Source of the DNA: Candidatus Omnitrophota bacterium
GTDB lineage: Bacteria; Omnitrophota; Gorgyraeia; B26-G9
DNA: 39,053 nucleotides
Direction of reading: 5' to 3'
Assembly: GCA_018817585.1 (NCBI GenBank)
Contig: JAHITE010000102.1
Location: 1-39,053, forward strand
Shown here: positions 921 to 8,262 of the stretch, one piece after another
How the letters are laid out: each line of letters begins with the position of its first letter
How positions within the stretch are numbered: the first letter of the stretch is position 1
Program-made: the position numbers and the translations under genes
Notes under the pieces: model-generated
Told to the model about the DNA's origin: nothing
The model's input: the letters and a program-made list of their open reading frames with translations, nothing else
The model's database searches: none

Positions 921-2027
921 ATGAGGGTAATTGCAATTGCGAATCAAAAAGGTGGTTGCGGCAAAACAACGACATCAATTAATTTAGCTGCTTGTTTATC
1001 CGGACTTAAAAAAAATGTTTTATTAATTGACTTAGATCCTCAGGGACATGCTAGCTTAGGGTTAAATGTCCAGCCGCAAAATTTGGCAAAAACTATTTAT
1101 AATGTATTAACTACTGATCCTGAAGCAAAATTACGCTTGGATGAAATTATTGTTCCTATATCTGAAAACCTTGATCTTGCTCCGGCAAATATTTTATTAT
1201 CGGCAATTGAGCAGGAATTATCAGGAAAGCCGGAAAGAGAAGCAAAATTATTTCAAGCAATAACCTTAATGGTTAGTAAAAAAACATATGATTATGTGAT
1301 TATTGATTGCTCTCCCAGCCTGGGTATTTTGACTTTTAATGGTTTGCGCGCCTGTACTGAATTGATTGCTCCAGTTGATACAGGATTTTTTTCTTTGCAT
1401 GGAATAAGCCGTTTGCTGGAAACAGTTAATCTTATTGATAAACGTTTAAATTGCCAGATAAAAGTAAAAGCATTGATCACAATGTTTGATCAAAGAACAA
1501 AATTTTCACACGAAGTAAAGGATGAAATTTATAAATATTTTTCCGGGAATGTGTTTGAAACTGTTATTCATAATAATGTTCGGGTAAAGGAAGCTTCAAG
1601 CTATGGGGTTCCGGTTGCTGCCTATGATAAGCGCTGCCGCGGGGCAATTGATTATATTGCTTTAGCCAATGAAATTGATTCGCCCAAAAGCAAGGAAAAG
1701 GCTAAAGCAGTGACAAACAGTGCTGCTGAAAAAATTACGTCTTTTATCGAAGAAGTGCAGCATGTGAAAAAAGGCACTGTGGTTACATTCCAATCTGATA
1801 ACGCGCGAAATGTGGAAATCGCGGGTGATTTTAATAACTGGATAAGCTCAGTTGATAGCAAGCTTGAACGGATTGATAATGGAGTTTGGGCAAAAGTGAT
1901 TCATCTGAAACCAGGGGCTTATAAATATAAATTTGTTGTCGATGGTCAATGGGTAACTGATCCGAATAACCCTAATTTGGAAATAGATGAAGTTGGCAAT
2001 AGAAATTCGATTCTCGAAGTTAAATAA
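921..2027 (+). CDS. ParA-type ATPase fused to a C-terminal glycogen-binding (AMPK/CBM48-type) domain
   Basis: Residues 1 to about 255 form a ParA/Soj-type ATPase. They carry the deviant Walker A K-G-G-C-G-K-T-T (residues 10-17), the A' box L-L-I-D-L-D-P-Q-G-H and the Walker B region Y-V-I-I-D-C-S-P. After a linker, residues about 285-368 match the carbohydrate-binding module of AMPK beta subunits: G-D-F-N-N-W (302-307), G-V-W (W323), Y-K-Y-K-F-V-V-D-G-Q-W (W344), D-P-N-N and a closing N-S-I-L-E-V. The tryptophans that stack on alpha-glucan in that family are present. The start is clear: ATG after aggagggagg. The gene precedes a MinD-like gene by 16 bases and lies in the same region as DUF4912 and GH57 genes. 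Role by inference: nucleoid- or surface-based positioning of an alpha-glucan cargo. A chromosomal ParA would not normally carry this module, and no parB is visible nearby. Confidence 0.9.
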   Translation: MRVIAIANQKGGCGKTTTSINLAACLSGLKKNVLLIDLDPQGHASLGLNVQPQNLAKTIYNVLTTDPEAKLRLDEIIVPISENLDLAPANILLSAIEQELSGKPEREAKLFQAITLMVSKKTYDYVIIDCSPSLGILTFNGLRACTELIAPVDTGFFSLHGISRLLETVNLIDKRLNCQIKVKALITMFDQRTKFSHEVKDEIYKYFSGNVFETVIHNNVRVKEASSYGVPVAAYDKRCRGAIDYIALANEIDSPKSKEKAKAVTNSAAEKITSFIEEVQHVKKGTVVTFQSDNARNVEIAGDFNNWISSVDSKLERIDNGVWAKVIHLKPGAYKYKFVVDGQWVTDPNNPNLEIDEVGNRNSILEVK

Positions 2028-2043
2028 AAACAGGATTAGGTTT

Positions 2044-2961
2044 ATGAATAAATTAAAGAAGTTGGGCAAAGGATTAGATGATATTTCCTATTTATTTCTT
2101 TCTCCCGAGCAGGAAGACAGCGCTGAACAAGAAATTATGCTAGAGCCAGATAAAACGCGAACTAAAACTGTGGAGATGGCGACAAAAAATATTTGTTTAA
2201 TCGGCAATAGCCATGATTCGCGCGACGCGTTTTTAGTGATCAATTTATCCTTGGCTTTGGCAAGGCTGGGGATGCGGATTGCTGTAGTTGATATGGATGA
2301 AAAATTGCCTTGTGTTAATTTTTTATTAGGCAGAGCTAATGACATTATCCTGGAAAATAATGGTCAGGAATTTGTTAGTCAAGGCCCTTTTGGAGTGAAA
2401 TTAGCAGGACTAAATGCTGCTTTGATTGAAAATATGCTGGTTGATAAAGCTTTGCGAACAAAAATCATGTTGGAAATGAAAAAAATGGAACAAGAAGTTG
2501 ATCTTGTGCTGATTAGCGTTTCCCAGGACAGCCTGTTTTATATGAATCCATTGCTGCGTAAATCAATTGAGGAGTTTTTGGTTTTTGTTTCTCCGGATAA
2601 AAACTCGATGCTTAATTCATATAAAGTTATAAAAACAATTTTTTCCAATAATCCAGTGGCGAAGATAGGAACAATTATAACTGATATTGAACATATGTAT
2701 GAAATAGATGTGGTATTTAATAAAATGTTTTCCGCAGTAAGGAAATTTCTGGTTAAAGAATTATATAAATATGGATTTCTGTTTAAACTGAAACAAGAAG
2801 TGAATAATAATTCCAATATCGCTTCTTTTTATGACGCGGATCTTACGGCATGTATTTCCAATATCGCTCAGATTATTATCTTGCGCTTAAATCTTGAAGA
2901 AAATGTTAAATCAAACGGCGAATTATTCAAGAACGTGTTTAATGAGTTTGGCATAGAATGA
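2044..2961 (+). CDS. MinD/FlhG-like protein with degenerate P-loop and ParB-like N-terminal motif
   Basis: The likely start is the ATG at 2044. An in-frame ATG at 1987 exists but would overlap the preceding gene, and the product from 2044 begins at once with the motif. Residues 5-20 read K-K-L-G-K-G-L-D-D-I-S-Y-L-F-L-S, resembling the ParB N-terminal peptide that stimulates ParA. Residues about 48-95 follow a MinD/ParA fold pattern (I-C-L-I-G-N-S-H-D-S-R-D, then I-N-L-S-L-A-L-A-R-L-G and V-V-D-M-D). The P-loop lysines and GKT are lost, and the Walker B equivalent is D-L-V-L-I-S-V-S. It probably does not hydrolyse ATP and may act as a regulator or partner of the preceding ATPase. The next gene follows after 7 bases. 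I know no named family for it. Confidence 0.75.
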   Translation: MNKLKKLGKGLDDISYLFLSPEQEDSAEQEIMLEPDKTRTKTVEMATKNICLIGNSHDSRDAFLVINLSLALARLGMRIAVVDMDEKLPCVNFLLGRANDIILENNGQEFVSQGPFGVKLAGLNAALIENMLVDKALRTKIMLEMKKMEQEVDLVLISVSQDSLFYMNPLLRKSIEEFLVFVSPDKNSMLNSYKVIKTIFSNNPVAKIGTIITDIEHMYEIDVVFNKMFSAVRKFLVKELYKYGFLFKLKQEVNNNSNIASFYDADLTACISNIAQIIILRLNLEENVKSNGELFKNVFNEFGIE

Positions 2962-2968
2962 GGAAACA

Positions 2969-3670
2969 ATGACTACAATATTTCACAATGCGCAAATCAG
3001 TAATGATAAACTCCGAGAAATTATTTTAAAAAATCCGCAAACATTGCTTCCTGGATTGAGTTTTATTGATCTGCAGATGTCTACGGATGAATCAGAAGTT
3101 ATTGATTTCTTGGGAGTGGATACAAACGGCCGCATGGTGATTGTGAATTTTGATGTTAATCCTAATGATCAGATGTTGATTGATGTCTTATCGCAAATTC
3201 AGTGGCTTAAAAAAAATCAGGGTTTAATTAAAAGGTTGTTTTTTAGCGAAAGTGTGGATTTTGATAAATCTTTACAGATTGTTTTAGTTAGTCCTGTTTT
3301 TTCAAGTAAACTGCAGTCCGCGGTCAGGCAGTTGTCGGATAAGGATATAAAACTGTTTAGTTTTAAATATATTGTTTCCCAGTCGGATGACGCGATTATA
3401 TTTGATGAAATATTTTCTCATATTAAAACAGCAGATTCGCGATCTTTAAAAAATCAATCTTTGGATGAACAAGCGAAGAAAGCCGCTGAATGTTCTGTTT
3501 TTTTTCAAAAAGAACAAATTGTTAAAAATCCTGGATTAGGATTCGAAAAGAGCGAAGAGCTTAAAAAAGAACAAGCTCCTTTGTATGATGTTATTACGCT
3601 TACGCCTGAAGAAATCGCGGAATTTATGGATGTTGAGGCTGCTTTAGACCAAAATCAAGTATCTGAATAA
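2969..3670 (+). CDS. Uncharacterised protein with a degenerate PD-(D/E)XK-like domain
   Basis: The protein has 233 residues. Residues about 44-63 (E-V-I-D-F-L-G-V-D-T-N-G-R-M-V-I-V-N-F-D-V) follow the pattern of NucS/DUF91-type nuclease cores (I-D-L-L-G-x-D-x-x-G-x-x-V-V-x-E-x-K). Here the E-x-K is replaced by N60-F61-D62. The following D-Q-M-L-I-D-V-L-S-Q-I-Q-W-L helix fits the conserved helix of that fold. If the match is right, it is a catalytically dead nuclease-like domain. The C-terminal third is charged and probably flexible. The gene starts 7 bases after the MinD-like gene, so it is probably co-transcribed with it. The true function is unknown, and the fold assignment rests on pattern recognition only. 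Confidence 0.6.
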   Translation: MTTIFHNAQISNDKLREIILKNPQTLLPGLSFIDLQMSTDESEVIDFLGVDTNGRMVIVNFDVNPNDQMLIDVLSQIQWLKKNQGLIKRLFFSESVDFDKSLQIVLVSPVFSSKLQSAVRQLSDKDIKLFSFKYIVSQSDDAIIFDEIFSHIKTADSRSLKNQSLDEQAKKAAECSVFFQKEQIVKNPGLGFEKSEELKKEQAPLYDVITLTPEEIAEFMDVEAALDQNQVSE

Positions 3671-3753
3671 AGCGATAAGTCGGATTTAAATTATTTTAAT
3701 AAATCTCCCCCCAATAATTAACTTAAAAACCTTTGATTACTTTTTAAGGAAAA

Positions 3754-4503
3754 ATGAACAATTCAAAAAACGTAAACCAAATCTGCAAAATAGAAAATTT
3801 ATTTCCGAAAAATATTATAGCGGCTTTTTCAGTGGGCAAAGTGAATTATGATTATCGCGCTGAGCCGGCAAGCGAAGTTTTGAAAAACAGAAAAATTTTC
3901 TTCAGTCAATTAGATGTTGAATTAGCCAAAGCTGTTTTCCCCATGCAAGTTCATAAAGCTGATGTGGCAAAAGTTGATGAGCGGGATAGAGGCCGCGGAG
4001 AATTTTCTTTTGAACATGGGATTGCCCATACAGACGCGCTTATAACCAATGTTAAGGAAGTAGTGCTTTGTTTGCTGACCGCGGATTGTTTGCCAATTAT
4101 TTTTCATGAATTAAGCGGTAAAGCAATCGGGATTGTTCATGCCGGATGGAAGGGGATAAGATTAGGGGTTATTGAAAAGACAATTCAGGCAATGGTTAAT
4201 GAATTTGGGGTAAAACCCCAGGATCTCAAAGCCTTTTTTGCGCCAGCCATTGGCAGCTGTTGTTATGAAGTCGGTCTGGAATTTTTAGATATTTTTCCAG
4301 ATGATATTAGTTCGCGTAATCAGACAAGATTTCTGGATATTAAAAATCTAGCTAAAAAAAAGTGCTTAAATGCCGGCATCTTACCCGGTTCGATAAAGGA
4401 TGTATCTGTTTGCACAAAATGCAGTAATGAGAAATTCTTCTCTTATAGATCCGGCGATTATCTTAAACGAATGCTGACTATTGTGGCGATTAAAGCAGGG
4501 TAA
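3754..4503 (+). CDS. pgeF: Peptidoglycan editing factor PgeF (laccase-domain, YfiH family)
   Basis: The 249-residue length is normal for the family. Family signatures are visible: H-K-A-D near residue 67, T-A-D-C-L-P-I-I-F-H at about 109-118, G-I-V-H-A-G-W-K-G with the metal-site His, G-S-C-C-Y-E-V-G, and a C-terminal C-T-K-C. YfiH/PgeF proteins use a Zn/Cu-type His-Cys-His site. They are linked to removal of wrongly incorporated L-Ser from peptidoglycan precursors and to purine nucleoside phosphorylase or deaminase activity. The ATG is preceded by taagga. It sits between two parts of the ParA/DUF4912 region, 83 bases after the previous gene, and nothing visible ties it to that system. Confidence 0.92.
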   Translation: MNNSKNVNQICKIENLFPKNIIAAFSVGKVNYDYRAEPASEVLKNRKIFFSQLDVELAKAVFPMQVHKADVAKVDERDRGRGEFSFEHGIAHTDALITNVKEVVLCLLTADCLPIIFHELSGKAIGIVHAGWKGIRLGVIEKTIQAMVNEFGVKPQDLKAFFAPAIGSCCYEVGLEFLDIFPDDISSRNQTRFLDIKNLAKKKCLNAGILPGSIKDVSVCTKCSNEKFFSYRSGDYLKRMLTIVAIKAG

Positions 4504-4561
4504 TAATACTCAACTTTTTTTTAGGTTGGGAGGCTTCTTTTGGTTATAGCTAATTATCTGC

Positions 4562-4590
4562 TTGACATTTATTTGCATATGTAGTAATTT
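4562..4590 (+). promoter_or_regulatory. Sigma70-type promoter before the DUF4912 gene
   Basis: A perfect -35 TTGACA (4562-4567) is followed after 17 bases by TAATTT (4585-4590). Transcription would start near 4597, giving a leader of about 40 bases before the ATG at 4637. The consensus -35 makes this a good call despite a weaker -10. Confidence 0.55.
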
Positions 4591-4636
4591 CTTTAAAGAG
4601 ATAAAGGATTTTTAATTAATTAAATAAAGAAAAATC

Positions 4637-6487
4637 ATGGCAAAAAAAACTAGCGTTAAAAAAATAATCAAAGCAAGAAAAACTGATAAAGCGAATGCTG
4701 AAACAGGAGAAAATAAAGCTTTGAAAATTAAAGAAGTAAAAGCTGCTAAGCCAGCGCGGAAAAAACTGGGTAAGGGCTTGGAAGATATTTCTACTTTATT
4801 TTTATCGGATATTAAAAAAGATTCTGCCGCGGCTAAGAAAAAAACTCAGAAACCTTTAGTCGCGAAAAAACCAGAGCCAAAGCTGAAAAAAAATAAAACT
4901 ACTGTTGTTAAAAAGATGATAAAAGCCCCAATTACTAAAATCACGGAATCGGCAAGAGTAAAAGATTTTAAAAAAACCGTTGCTGATCTGGGTGAAAAAA
5001 CAATAGTAGAAAAGAAAATAATTTCTAAGAAAACTGTCGCGAAGGTTGTAAAAAAAATAATTACCGATAATAAAGATGCCGCTAAAAAAACTATGGCTAA
5101 GGCTATTAAAAAAACCGCTTTGTTGAAAAAGCAGGTTTCTGAAAAAGCGATGGCTGAAGTTGTTAAAAAAGCAGTTGTAGTTAAGGAAAATGTTCCTAAA
5201 AAAACTGTTGCTGAAATTGCTAAAAAAGTAACTGTAGTGAAGGAAAGCATTCCTGCGAAAGTGATTGTTAAAGCTGATCTAGAGCTGGAACTTCATAAGG
5301 ATATTAATTCTCCTAAAACTACAGTTTTAAATGATAAAAATCCTGAAAAAGGTGCAATGGAAAAAAAGATTGAAAATATTGCAGAAGAAAAGCTAAAAGC
5401 AAAAAAAGCAACTTCCAAACCGAATATGAAAAAAACAGAGGTGGTAAGGATGGGAACGTTAAAAAAATCTTCAAAAGAGGATACAAAGCCAACCCAGGTC
5501 AAAACAACAGCGAAAAAGAATAATAAAATAAATGCCGTTAGTAAGAAAACGCAGAACCTCGGGCCAATAAGTGAATTAAAAACGCTATTAAAGAAAAAAA
5601 CTAAGGCTGAGCAAACAGCTGATTCTCTGTCGATTCAAGCTGAACAAGTTATTGAAGATAGTAAGTTCTTCGTCAGCAAAGAGACGGTAAGCAGGATAAC
5701 TGAAGATGAGTTTTTTGAACTGCCTGAGGGGTATGGAGATAACCGGATTGTGATTCAGGTTAGGGATCCTTATTGGCTATTTGCTTACTGGGAAATTTCG
5801 CAGAGGAAATTAAATTCAGTTGTGGGAAAGTACGGCAATTATCTGAACAGAGCCCGAAGAGTTCTCAGGGTTTATGATATTACTGCTGTTTCTTTTAACG
5901 GTAATAACGCGAACAGTTTTTTCGATATAGATGTTAATGATATTGCCAAAAACTGGTATGTGAATGTTGGAAATCCGGGAAGAAGTTACTGCATTGATAT
6001 TGGTCTGATTTTAGAAAATGGAAGTTTTGTTGTCTTAGCGCGTTCTAATTTTGTGACAACTCCGATTGATGCTCCGAGTATGGTTACGGATGAAGAGTGG
6101 ATGATTGTTGAGGAAGATTTTAATAAACTTTACGGATTATCCGCGGGATTGGGAATTGGCTTAAGCTCGGGAGAGTTAAGGAAACAAATAAAGACAAGAT
6201 TAAGGAATTTATCATCCGGGATATTGAGTTCACCTGGGATTACGACTGTAAAGCCAAGCCGCAATTTTTGGATGGTAGTTAATACCGAATTGATAGTTTA
6301 TGGAGCAACTCAGCCAGGTTCTGAACTGACAGTTCAGGGTAAGCCGATTGTATTAAATGAAGATGGAACTTTTAGTCTTCGTTTTGCTTTGCCGGATGGA
6401 GAGCAGATTATTCCGGTTCGAGCGGTTTCTCCGGATAAGGTTGAAGAACGGGTAATTACTCCTGTTGTTACAAAAAACACGGTGTAA
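4637..6487 (+). CDS. DUF4912 protein with Lys/Ala-rich repeats and ParB-like motif
   Basis: The protein has 616 residues. Residues 1-41 are basic. Residues 42-57 carry K-K-L-G-K-G-L-E-D-I-S-T-L-F-L-S, 14 of 16 identical to the N-terminus of the MinD-like protein at 2044. Residues about 110-345 are Lys/Ala/Val-rich with imperfect repeats of about 19-20 residues built around K-K-T-V-A-x-x-x-K-K (131-212), histone-H1-like in composition. Residues about 360-480 form the DUF4912 domain, with I-V-I-Q-V-R-D-P-Y-W-L-F-A-Y-W-E-I. A beta-rich C-terminal module follows (about 545-605; V-N-T-E-L-I-V-Y-G-A-T-Q-P-G). DUF4912 is often found next to GH57 genes, as here. By inference it is an adaptor linking nucleoid, ParA and alpha-glucan enzymes. 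It has its own promoter and a strong terminator after the gene. Confidence 0.8.
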   Translation: MAKKTSVKKIIKARKTDKANAETGENKALKIKEVKAAKPARKKLGKGLEDISTLFLSDIKKDSAAAKKKTQKPLVAKKPEPKLKKNKTTVVKKMIKAPITKITESARVKDFKKTVADLGEKTIVEKKIISKKTVAKVVKKIITDNKDAAKKTMAKAIKKTALLKKQVSEKAMAEVVKKAVVVKENVPKKTVAEIAKKVTVVKESIPAKVIVKADLELELHKDINSPKTTVLNDKNPEKGAMEKKIENIAEEKLKAKKATSKPNMKKTEVVRMGTLKKSSKEDTKPTQVKTTAKKNNKINAVSKKTQNLGPISELKTLLKKKTKAEQTADSLSIQAEQVIEDSKFFVSKETVSRITEDEFFELPEGYGDNRIVIQVRDPYWLFAYWEISQRKLNSVVGKYGNYLNRARRVLRVYDITAVSFNGNNANSFFDIDVNDIAKNWYVNVGNPGRSYCIDIGLILENGSFVVLARSNFVTTPIDAPSMVTDEEWMIVEEDFNKLYGLSAGLGIGLSSGELRKQIKTRLRNLSSGILSSPGITTVKPSRNFWMVVNTELIVYGATQPGSELTVQGKPIVLNEDGTFSLRFALPDGEQIIPVRAVSPDKVEERVITPVVTKNTV

Positions 6488-6570: not shown

Positions 6571-6599
6571 TTGAATTATTTAAAGCTGTATGTTAATAT
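6571..6599 (+). promoter_or_regulatory. Sigma70-type promoter for the GH57 gene
   Basis: TTGAAT (6571-6576), a 17-base spacer and TAATAT (6594-6599) lie directly after the terminator. The predicted start near 6606 leaves a leader of about 76 bases to the ATG at 6682. It supports starting the protein at 6682 rather than at the in-frame codon at 6571, which would overlap the -35 box. Confidence 0.5.
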
Positions 6600-6681
6600 A
6601 AGAACGTTGTTTAATTTATTTATAAGCCTGCAGGTTCAAAGGTTTTCTGTCAATTGGTTACTTAGAATAATAGGGGAAAAT

Positions 6682-8262
6682 ATGGAAAAAGGATATCTTT
6701 GCATTGTGTTACATGGGCATTTACCTTTTGTTCGCCATCCAGAGCATGAGAATTTTCTAGAGGAAGAGTGGCTTTATGAAGCTATAACCGAGACTTATAT
6801 TCCCTTGCTTAATATATTTGATAAGCTGATAGAAGATGGTGTGAATTTCCGGATAACCATGGGCGTTTCTCCGCCATTAATCTCGATGCTGCTTGATCCT
6901 TTATTACAGCATCGGTATATTATGCATATTGAGAAGTTAATTGAGCTGGCCAGCCGGGAAGTGGAAAGAACCCGATGGCAGCCAGAATTTAATAAGCTTG
7001 CTTTAATGTATTTAAGCAAATTTAATCTGGCCAGATACTATTTCGCGGAAAAACACAGAGGTAATCTTTTAGAAGCATTTAAGCGTGTCCAGGACGCGGG
7101 TAGGTTGGATATTATGACTTGTGGGGCAACGCATGGTTTTTTTCCCTTGATGGAGACTTGTAAAGATTCTATTCGTGCCCAGGTAAGAGCAGCGGTTGAA
7201 CAATATAAAAAGGTTTTTCAACGCCAGCCCAAAGGTATTTGGCTGCCGGAGTGCGGATATCATCCTGGCGATGATGAGATTCTAAAAGAAAACGGGATAA
7301 GATACTTTTTTACTGATACACATGGCGTTCTGCATGGTACGCCCAGACCGAAATACGGAGTTTTCGCTCCGGTTTATTGTAAATCCGGAGTAGCTTGCTT
7401 TGGCAGAGATCTTGAGTCCTCAAAACAGGTTTGGAGCGCGAAACAAGGATATCCCGGAGATTATAATTACCGGGAATTTTATCGGGATATTGGTTTTGAT
7501 TTAGAGTTTGATTACATAAAACCTTATATACATCCAGATGGGATCAGAACTAATACGGGAATAAAATACTATCGGATTACTGGTGAAACAGATAATAAGC
7601 AGCCTTATAATGAAGAAGTGGCGATGCAGACAGCCGCGTCGCATGCTGCTAATTTTATGTTTAACCGGGAAAAGCAGGCTGATTATGTTAAAGAAATTAT
7701 AAAAAGAAAGCCGATTATTGTCGCGCCATATGACGCGGAGTTATTTGGCCATTGGTGGTATGAAGGTCCGAATTGGCTTAATTTTTTAATCAGAAAAATT
7801 GCTTATGACCAGAAGAACATTAAACTTATTTCTCCCTCAGACTATTTAGATGAATATCCCAAGAACCAGGTAATTACGCCGTCTCTTTCCAGCTGGGGAT
7901 ATAAGGGCTATGCCGAGTTTTGGTTGGAAGGTTCCAATGCCTGGGTATATAGGCATTTGCACAAAGCTTCAGAGCGGATGAGTGAATTGGTTAAGCTATA
8001 TCCTGAAGCCGGAGGATTGACTCTGAGAGCGCTAAACCAGGCTTTACGCGAAGTCTTACTCGCGCAAAGTTCTGATTGGGCTTTTATTATGAAAACTGGT
8101 ACGCATGTTTCTTATGCTGTTGACAGAACTAAAAAACACGTGCTTAATTTTACCAAGTTATACAATCAGATAAAGGCGAATAATATCAAAGAACAATGGT
8201 TGGGTGAAATTGAGTCGAAAGATAATATATTTCCTGATATTAGTTATAAGTTCCATTCATGA
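6682..8262 (+). CDS. GH57 family 1,4-alpha-glucan branching-type enzyme (DUF1957)
   Basis: The start is the ATG at 6682 behind taggggaaaa; the N-terminus M-E-K-G-Y-L-C-I-V-L-H-G-H-L-P-F is the standard GH57 beginning (motif 1, His-x-His). The product is 526 residues, the usual size for this branch. The nucleophile motif W-L-P-E-C-G-Y has Glu190. Motif 4 (A-P-Y-D-A-E-L-F-G-H-W-W) supplies the catalytic acid Asp351. The C-terminal helical part (A-L-N-Q-A-L-R-E-V-L-L-A-Q-S-S-D-W) is typical of DUF1957 enzymes. Characterised relatives (the Thermococcus/Thermus type) transfer alpha-1,4-glucan segments to form 1,6 branches, though some members have unproven activity. No signal peptide is seen, so it is cytoplasmic. 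Lying next to the DUF4912 gene supports a role in glycogen-like polymer metabolism. Confidence 0.9.
   Translation: MEKGYLCIVLHGHLPFVRHPEHENFLEEEWLYEAITETYIPLLNIFDKLIEDGVNFRITMGVSPPLISMLLDPLLQHRYIMHIEKLIELASREVERTRWQPEFNKLALMYLSKFNLARYYFAEKHRGNLLEAFKRVQDAGRLDIMTCGATHGFFPLMETCKDSIRAQVRAAVEQYKKVFQRQPKGIWLPECGYHPGDDEILKENGIRYFFTDTHGVLHGTPRPKYGVFAPVYCKSGVACFGRDLESSKQVWSAKQGYPGDYNYREFYRDIGFDLEFDYIKPYIHPDGIRTNTGIKYYRITGETDNKQPYNEEVAMQTAASHAANFMFNREKQADYVKEIIKRKPIIVAPYDAELFGHWWYEGPNWLNFLIRKIAYDQKNIKLISPSDYLDEYPKNQVITPSLSSWGYKGYAEFWLEGSNAWVYRHLHKASERMSELVKLYPEAGGLTLRALNQALREVLLAQSSDWAFIMKTGTHVSYAVDRTKKHVLNFTKLYNQIKANNIKEQWLGEIESKDNIFPDISYKFHS

Follow-up and report, generated by a model that had tools for sequence, protein, structure and literature searches.

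Contig C39 of an Omnitrophota metagenome-assembled genome (2.64 Mb, 92% complete) was analysed over its full 39,053 nucleotides, referred to here as the window. Its forward strand encodes a ParA-type ATPase with a C-terminal glycogen-recognition module of the AMP-activated protein kinase (AMPK) type (positions 921..2027, hereafter ParA-CBM), a MinD-like protein (2044..2961) and a DUF4912 protein (4637..6487). The last two share a 16-residue motif that resembles the N-terminal, ParA-binding peptide of ParB. It reads KKLGKGLDDISYLFLS in the MinD-like protein (2056..2103, residues 5-20, with the open reading frame starting at ATG 2044) and KKLGKGLEDISTLFLS in the DUF4912 protein (4760..4807, residues 42-57, within a Lys-rich tail), both on the forward strand. 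The motif was assessed by translation, codon comparison, conservation among relatives and codon constraint.

The initial annotation had reported that 14 of the 16 residues are identical between the copies, and that 10 of these 14 common residues use different codons. Both counts were reproduced with exact coordinates, the other 4 residues using the same codon, and the observation is stronger than first stated. A BLASTP alignment of one protein with the other detected the motif (E = 3e-5 for the pair) and nothing else that rose above noise. When both proteins were shuffled 60 times, 16-mers matched at 8 residues at most, and the binomial expectation for a match as good as 14/16 is 6e-10. The family to which the source genome (G000) belongs comprises 12 genomes, all of which were searched for MinD-like orthologues. 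The motif is intact in 10 of the 12 orthologues found; in G005 it has decayed to LNKGLEDLSHLFLA, and in G007 LGKGL is gone and DISYLFLS is retained. The DUF4912 orthologues of the family comprise seven with the motif, three with a readable N-terminus and no motif (G003, G004 and G007) and one truncated where its contig ends, while the remaining genome gave no DUF4912 match; 7 of the 10 readable orthologues thus carry the motif. None of the DUF4912 proteins read outside the family has it. The claim under examination had been made dependent on conservation among homologues, and within the family such conservation was found for both carriers.

Codon differences, counted over all genome pairs, reveal how strongly the motif is constrained. 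In the MinD-like protein the synonymous share of these differences is 81% within the motif, 7% in the linker that follows it and 56% in those regions of the fold that are best conserved, which makes the motif the most constrained block of the protein across the family. The DUF4912 copy, with 79% synonymous differences among its seven occurrences, forms a conserved island in a hypervariable and hardly alignable tail. From these fractions we conclude that purifying selection acts strongly on the motif in either protein. Between copy 1 and copy 2, the synonymous fraction is 0.82 within genomes and 0.83 between genomes; the two fractions are equal, so the copies evolve independently, and gene conversion or recent copying between the two genes was rejected. 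The codon differences and the equal synonymous fractions together bear out the earlier view that the similarity is conserved at the protein level and not recently copied. A search of the genome for additional N-terminal carriers, made with DNA patterns and with some matches read only as DNA letters, returned LG[KR]GL near an N-terminus in the two proteins and ParB only. The only other GKG[LF]DDI-type DNA match, GKGFDDI on contig C10, lies mid-protein in a secretin-like protein and was rejected as a third carrier. An EF-G-like match and other LGKGL matches, likewise mid-protein, were also discarded, leaving ParB alone.

Pfam recognises the MinD-like protein only marginally, by a weak CbiA match, and its fold was assigned from an AlphaFold2 model based on a 12-sequence alignment, with a predicted template modelling score (pTM) of 0.69. 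The best Foldseek match of this model was FlhG (4rz2), with an E value of 1e-13 and a template modelling score of 0.77 by target length. The protein is accordingly modelled with a MinD/FlhG (FlhG/FleN) fold, and the intact FlhG-type ATPases of family f5 resemble it at the sequence level. In all 12 orthologues the Walker A segment (KGGxGK[TS]) is replaced by IGNSHDSRDAF (from nucleotide 2200) or equivalents, and none of the 12 contains a P-loop motif. Because this replacement extends to every orthologue, we regard the protein as a pseudo-ATPase; the label MinD-like given by the initial annotation thus holds for the fold and needs qualifying as regards ATPase function. Residues 1-44, which include the motif, have a predicted local distance difference test score below 50 and are predicted to be disordered, with a short helix at residues 15-18. 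All 12 family members encode the protein, and no orthologue was detected elsewhere among the 292 genomes of the class that were scanned, a scan that otherwise yielded intact FlhG-type ATPases in a single other family.

The DUF4912 protein consists of a hypervariable tail of 340 residues, 89 of them Lys, followed by the DUF4912 domain (PF16258, 2e-38) and an Ig-like C-terminal domain. Alignment of relatives revealed two further conserved short peptides in the tail: PISELKTLLKKK (PISxLKxLxKK; 5564..5599, forward strand), which recurs in relatives and in divergent form also in some without the LGKGL motif, and KKTEVxRM (5429-5452). The structural model is largely beta with a low pTM and gave FN3/Ig-type matches only, and a recognisable carbohydrate-binding fold was therefore rejected. 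The Lys-rich protein probably binds DNA or another polyanion. DUF4912 proteins elsewhere in the class (L025-L054) often begin, as judged by eye, with basic tails or with helices that look SAP- or Rho-N-type. There are sequence features hinting at nucleic-acid binding as a general property of DUF4912 proteins; a search of a literature collection retrieved no relevant paper dealing directly with them.

The organism's own ParB is encoded on contig C111 beside a canonical ParA. Its N-terminus reads MDRKVLGKGLGALISPE, and ParB orthologues of the family follow the common pattern VLG[KR]GLxALI. In Myxococcus xanthus, the ParB segment L11-G12-R13-G14-L15-x-A17-L18-I19 binds ParA; L11, L15, L18 and I19 are each critical for binding, and R13 is needed for ATPase stimulation (PMC12462528). 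The motif retains the L, G, K, G and L of ParB and a hydrophobic residue at position 8. The Leu-Gly-[Lys/Arg]-Gly-Leu core is present in both copies, and three of the four hydrophobic hot spots are present (L, L and I), the fourth being Ser, with L17, F18 and L19 following as extra hydrophobic residues. Since the organism's own ParB starts with MDRKVLGKGLGALISPE, the motif core can be regarded as a ParA-binding peptide of the ParB type in which the second half has changed, and the earlier suggestion of a ParB-like N-terminal peptide is corroborated by the L-G-K-G-L that the motif and this ParB have in common. In both carriers the motif lies at or near the N-terminus, where the chain is of low complexity or predicted to be disordered. 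As a helix it would be strongly amphipathic, with a hydrophobic moment in the top 1-3% of peptides from the window. Neither carrier has a Pfam match to the ParB/Srx N-terminal domain, the real ParB being encoded elsewhere. Sequence comparison gives good support to reading the motif as a docking peptide of the ParB type, and the MinD-like and DUF4912 proteins are probably both partners of a ParA.

ParA-CBM (Pfam AAA_31, 1e-51; AMPK1_CBM, 1e-15) contains a canonical ParA domain with an intact Walker A motif (KGGCGKT at 948), the catalytic Asp, IDLDPQ and conserved columns 36, 37, 58 and 60, and its C-terminal module has FNNW and DGQW motifs. No relevant paper on a ParA with a glycogen-binding module was found in the literature collection searched. 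The best match by sequence in the PDB is 8ray, the M. xanthus ParA used in the binding study, so the pocket residues defined there can be transferred directly (PMC12462528). ParA-CBM of the source genome keeps Y81, E117, L150, G151, L187 and L192 of this pocket and has conservative changes at 152 (I) and 155 (F). The chromosomal ParA has a near-canonical pocket in those family genomes that were read, and both ParAs retain L150, G151, L187, Y81 and mostly L192. In addition, the charge of residue 12 of the MinD-like peptide covaries with that of ParA-CBM residue 190. D or E is paired with K or R in nine genomes, and the exceptions change in step, with G opposite Q in G004 and K opposite D in G007. 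Among the 349 columns of ParA-CBM, a charge pattern matching that of peptide residue 12 is unique to column 190. In M. xanthus ParA, the nuclear magnetic resonance shift of Q190 moves upon binding of the ParB peptide (PMC12462528).

The surrounding cluster is conserved. Where contigs allow, the family gene order is pilin, ParA-CBM, MinD-like, nuclease-like, laccase-type, DUF4912, GH57, UppS and CdsA, with a few deviations; in G003, for instance, GH57 is preceded by two additional genes. The nuclease-like gene (2969..3670, forward strand, 233 amino acids), syntenic in all family members that have that stretch, encodes a possible degenerate PDDEXK/NucS-like protein; its NucS match (E 5e-5) lies below the cut-off of the model, the resemblance to the C-terminal (PDDEXK) domain of NucS is weak, and the expected active-site region is apparently altered (VNFDV). 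It is followed on the same strand by a laccase-domain (YfiH/PgeF-type) protein (3754..4503; PF02578, 1.7e-57) in conserved cluster position, which is probably housekeeping. Downstream of the DUF4912 gene, also on the forward strand, lies a GH57 alpha-glucan branching enzyme (6571..8262; PF03065, 1e-40; BE_C, 2e-40), the open reading frame of which runs from TTG 6571 and shows homology from near 6682. In G005 (C211, L018) the pilin gene is directly followed by that of the MinD-like protein, and ParA-CBM is cleanly missing at the syntenic site. ParA-CBM was not found elsewhere in this genome, which is 88% complete, and the sole AMPK-type module found there sits in another protein. A search of a viral fold library gave no useful match.

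ParA-CBM is also widespread in other families of the class, where it is not accompanied by the MinD-like protein. At nearly all of the 19 loci read there (L066-L084), the product of the gene upstream of ParA-CBM begins with a conserved peptide of its own (e.g. IYEHLAKVYLGKKKK), followed by basic and hydrophobic stretches. This product appears to have a basic cytoplasmic N-terminus, a membrane span and a jelly-roll-like domain, the last with weak matches to CBM30, CBM17 and CBM11. No copy of it was detectable in any of the 12 family genomes, and we infer that ParA-CBM has changed partner between families. By eye its peptide ([ILV]Ax[TVI][YF][LF]) looked similar to DISxLFLS; the likeness is not significant, as profile comparisons in both directions ranked only in the top 1-5% of windows, and no homology is claimed.

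Our preferred explanation, which we hold with a confidence just past even, is that a ParB-type, ATPase-activating ParA-docking peptide has been grafted onto two non-ParB proteins, and that its target is most likely ParA-CBM, the gene for which lies a short distance upstream in the cluster. Docking of both proteins on ParA-CBM, judged from sequence comparisons, would be the most likely single reading, with about an even chance. In the mechanism that we envisage, the MinD-like and DUF4912 proteins would each insert the amphipathic peptide, through L7, L11, I14 and L17/F18, into a hydrophobic cleft at the edge of the ParA dimer. K9 would trigger ATP hydrolysis as the corresponding Arg/Lys does in ParB, and both carriers would thereby stimulate ParA-CBM in preference to the chromosomal ParA. 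The cycling of ParA-CBM on the nucleoid would then be coupled to whatever the carriers and the glucan-binding module hold, a cargo that is plausibly associated with alpha-glucan. The docking interpretation of the initial annotation is thus partly supported, by protein-level conservation, the core common to the organism's own ParB, N-terminal disorder and a largely kept ParA-CBM pocket, and weakened by the second half of the motif, which departs from ParB and loses one hot spot.

Several observations weigh against docking on ParA-CBM. Compared with xALI of ParB, the second half DISxLFLS has D in place of A17 and S in place of I19, with LFLS added. Relative to the M. xanthus pocket, that of ParA-CBM has Q instead of V at 116, L, M or V instead of D at 110 and usually a change at 82, and these differences are also seen in ParA-CBM from families in which the motif is absent. 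The covariation at residue 190 was noticed after looking and involves two or three independent changes, and the DUF4912 copy of G002 and G011 breaks it with a K opposite K190; for these reasons we count it as support and not as proof. G003, G004 and G007 have ParA-CBM together with a DUF4912 protein that lacks the motif. G005 lacks ParA-CBM and still encodes the MinD-like protein with the decayed motif, and this is the strongest argument against ParA-CBM being the full explanation.

Because of G005 and the three motif-free DUF4912 proteins, the canonical chromosomal ParA remains a rival target. The carriers would then ride on the ParABS system, or compete with ParB for it, and ParA-CBM would have a different partner. 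This ParA is equally available, with a near-canonical pocket in all family members read, and its ParB uses the LGKGL core. We nevertheless consider it an unlikely target, since the motif is encoded beside ParA-CBM and not beside parAB, the MinD-like protein is confined to the family among the class genomes scanned, its DISxLFLS differs from the xALI of ParB, and the charge covariation is with ParA-CBM. Moreover, the MinD-like protein of G007 has lost LGKGL while ParB and the chromosomal ParA stay canonical. One peptide might also bind both ParAs and so link cargo held by ParA-CBM to the chromosome-segregation ParA, as could be expected from an LGKGL half that matches ParB, a family-specific second half and pocket residues that are mostly common to both ATPases; however, ParA/MinD systems sharing a cell have been argued to keep their partners specific (PMC10241942), and we rate dual binding as rather improbable.

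Two further explanations do without a ParA partner. Relatives of FlhG and MinD employ amphipathic helices at the membrane, and with its high hydrophobic moment the motif might be a helix by which the two carriers attach to the membrane or assemble with each other, unrelated to ParA. A membrane helix would require neither the invariant D13 and S15 nor so strict an LGKGL core, which makes this explanation improbable. The occurrence of the DUF4912 motif in only part of the family, clustered on a tree with an unresolved backbone, is what would be seen if the MinD-like gene had been partly duplicated at its 5' end and this copy were a functionless relic of that event. Such an origin is very improbable given that 79% of the codon differences among the seven copies are synonymous, which indicates purifying selection.

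The glucan-binding theme extends beyond the cluster. The closest match in the genome to the ParA-CBM module, 54% identical, is an AMPK-beta-type module in a structural maintenance of chromosomes (SMC) protein of 1318 amino acids (contig C81, L194:376-4329, forward strand; module match at contig positions 13852-14094). It occupies residues 621-702 of the fragment scanned, just after the hinge at 485-588. One continuous match covers hinge and module in ten family genomes, and in G007 the match is split, so that the module was found in 11 of the 12; in G003 and in genomes outside the family (58 genomes examined), SMC was matched by the hinge only or not at all. FN.W and DG.W motifs, including tryptophans that we take to be the glycogen contacts of AMPK-beta, are kept in most copies of both the ParA-CBM and the SMC modules. 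A search of the literature collection for an SMC with a glycogen-binding module found no relevant paper. That SMC carries this putative glucan-binding module too makes a connection of this theme to the nucleoid more likely. We therefore raise the tentative and on balance doubtful idea of a system coupling nucleoid and alpha-glucan, in which ParA and SMC carry the same module, two adaptors address ParA by a ParB-type peptide, and glucan granules or complexes would be positioned on, or segregated with, the chromosome.

The presence of a glycogen-recognition module on both ParA and SMC suggests that carbon storage is physically linked to the organisation of the chromosome in an uncultured phylum. 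If docking on ParA-CBM is correct, the activating peptide of ParB would be a portable module, able to recruit a cargo-positioning ATPase from unrelated proteins, a dead one of the ParA fold among them. It would also provide a sequence rule for the pairing of adaptors and ParAs, namely an LGKGL core, a variable second half and a covarying contact at ParA residue 190. The loss of ParA-CBM in G005 represents a natural deletion that bears on its partner relationship with the MinD-like protein.

The arrangement shares features with several known systems. Like the N-terminal motif of ParB/Spo0J, the peptide has an L-G-K-G-L core near a disordered N-terminus, a Gly-flanked basic residue and hydrophobic residues thereafter, whereas its carriers have no ParB/Srx domain and its second half is [DE]DISxLFLS instead of xALI. 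The MinD-like carrier resembles FlhG/FleN in fold, and the FlhG-type proteins of family f5 in sequence, but has lost Walker A and has the ParB-like peptide in place of the DQAxxLR start of intact homologues. The C-terminal domain of ParA-CBM, with its FNNW and DGQW motifs, resembles the AMPK-beta glycogen-binding module (CBM48 clan), which is found here on ParA and, in the family, on SMC, and not on a kinase subunit or an amylolytic enzyme. Short N-terminal peptides on unrelated adaptors are already known from TlpT, McdB and PomX/PomY (PMC7993993, PMC10241942), and PomZ has two activating partners (PMC7993993). Parallels to the two carriers are TlpT (with PpfA), McdB (with McdA), PomX/PomY (with PomZ) and MinE (with MinD), unrelated proteins in which a short basic N-terminal peptide is used, or proposed, to address one ParA-type ATPase. 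The system described here differs from all of these in that a near-identical peptide is found on two unrelated carriers, one of them with a pseudo-ParA fold, and in that the presumed ATPase has a glucan-binding module.

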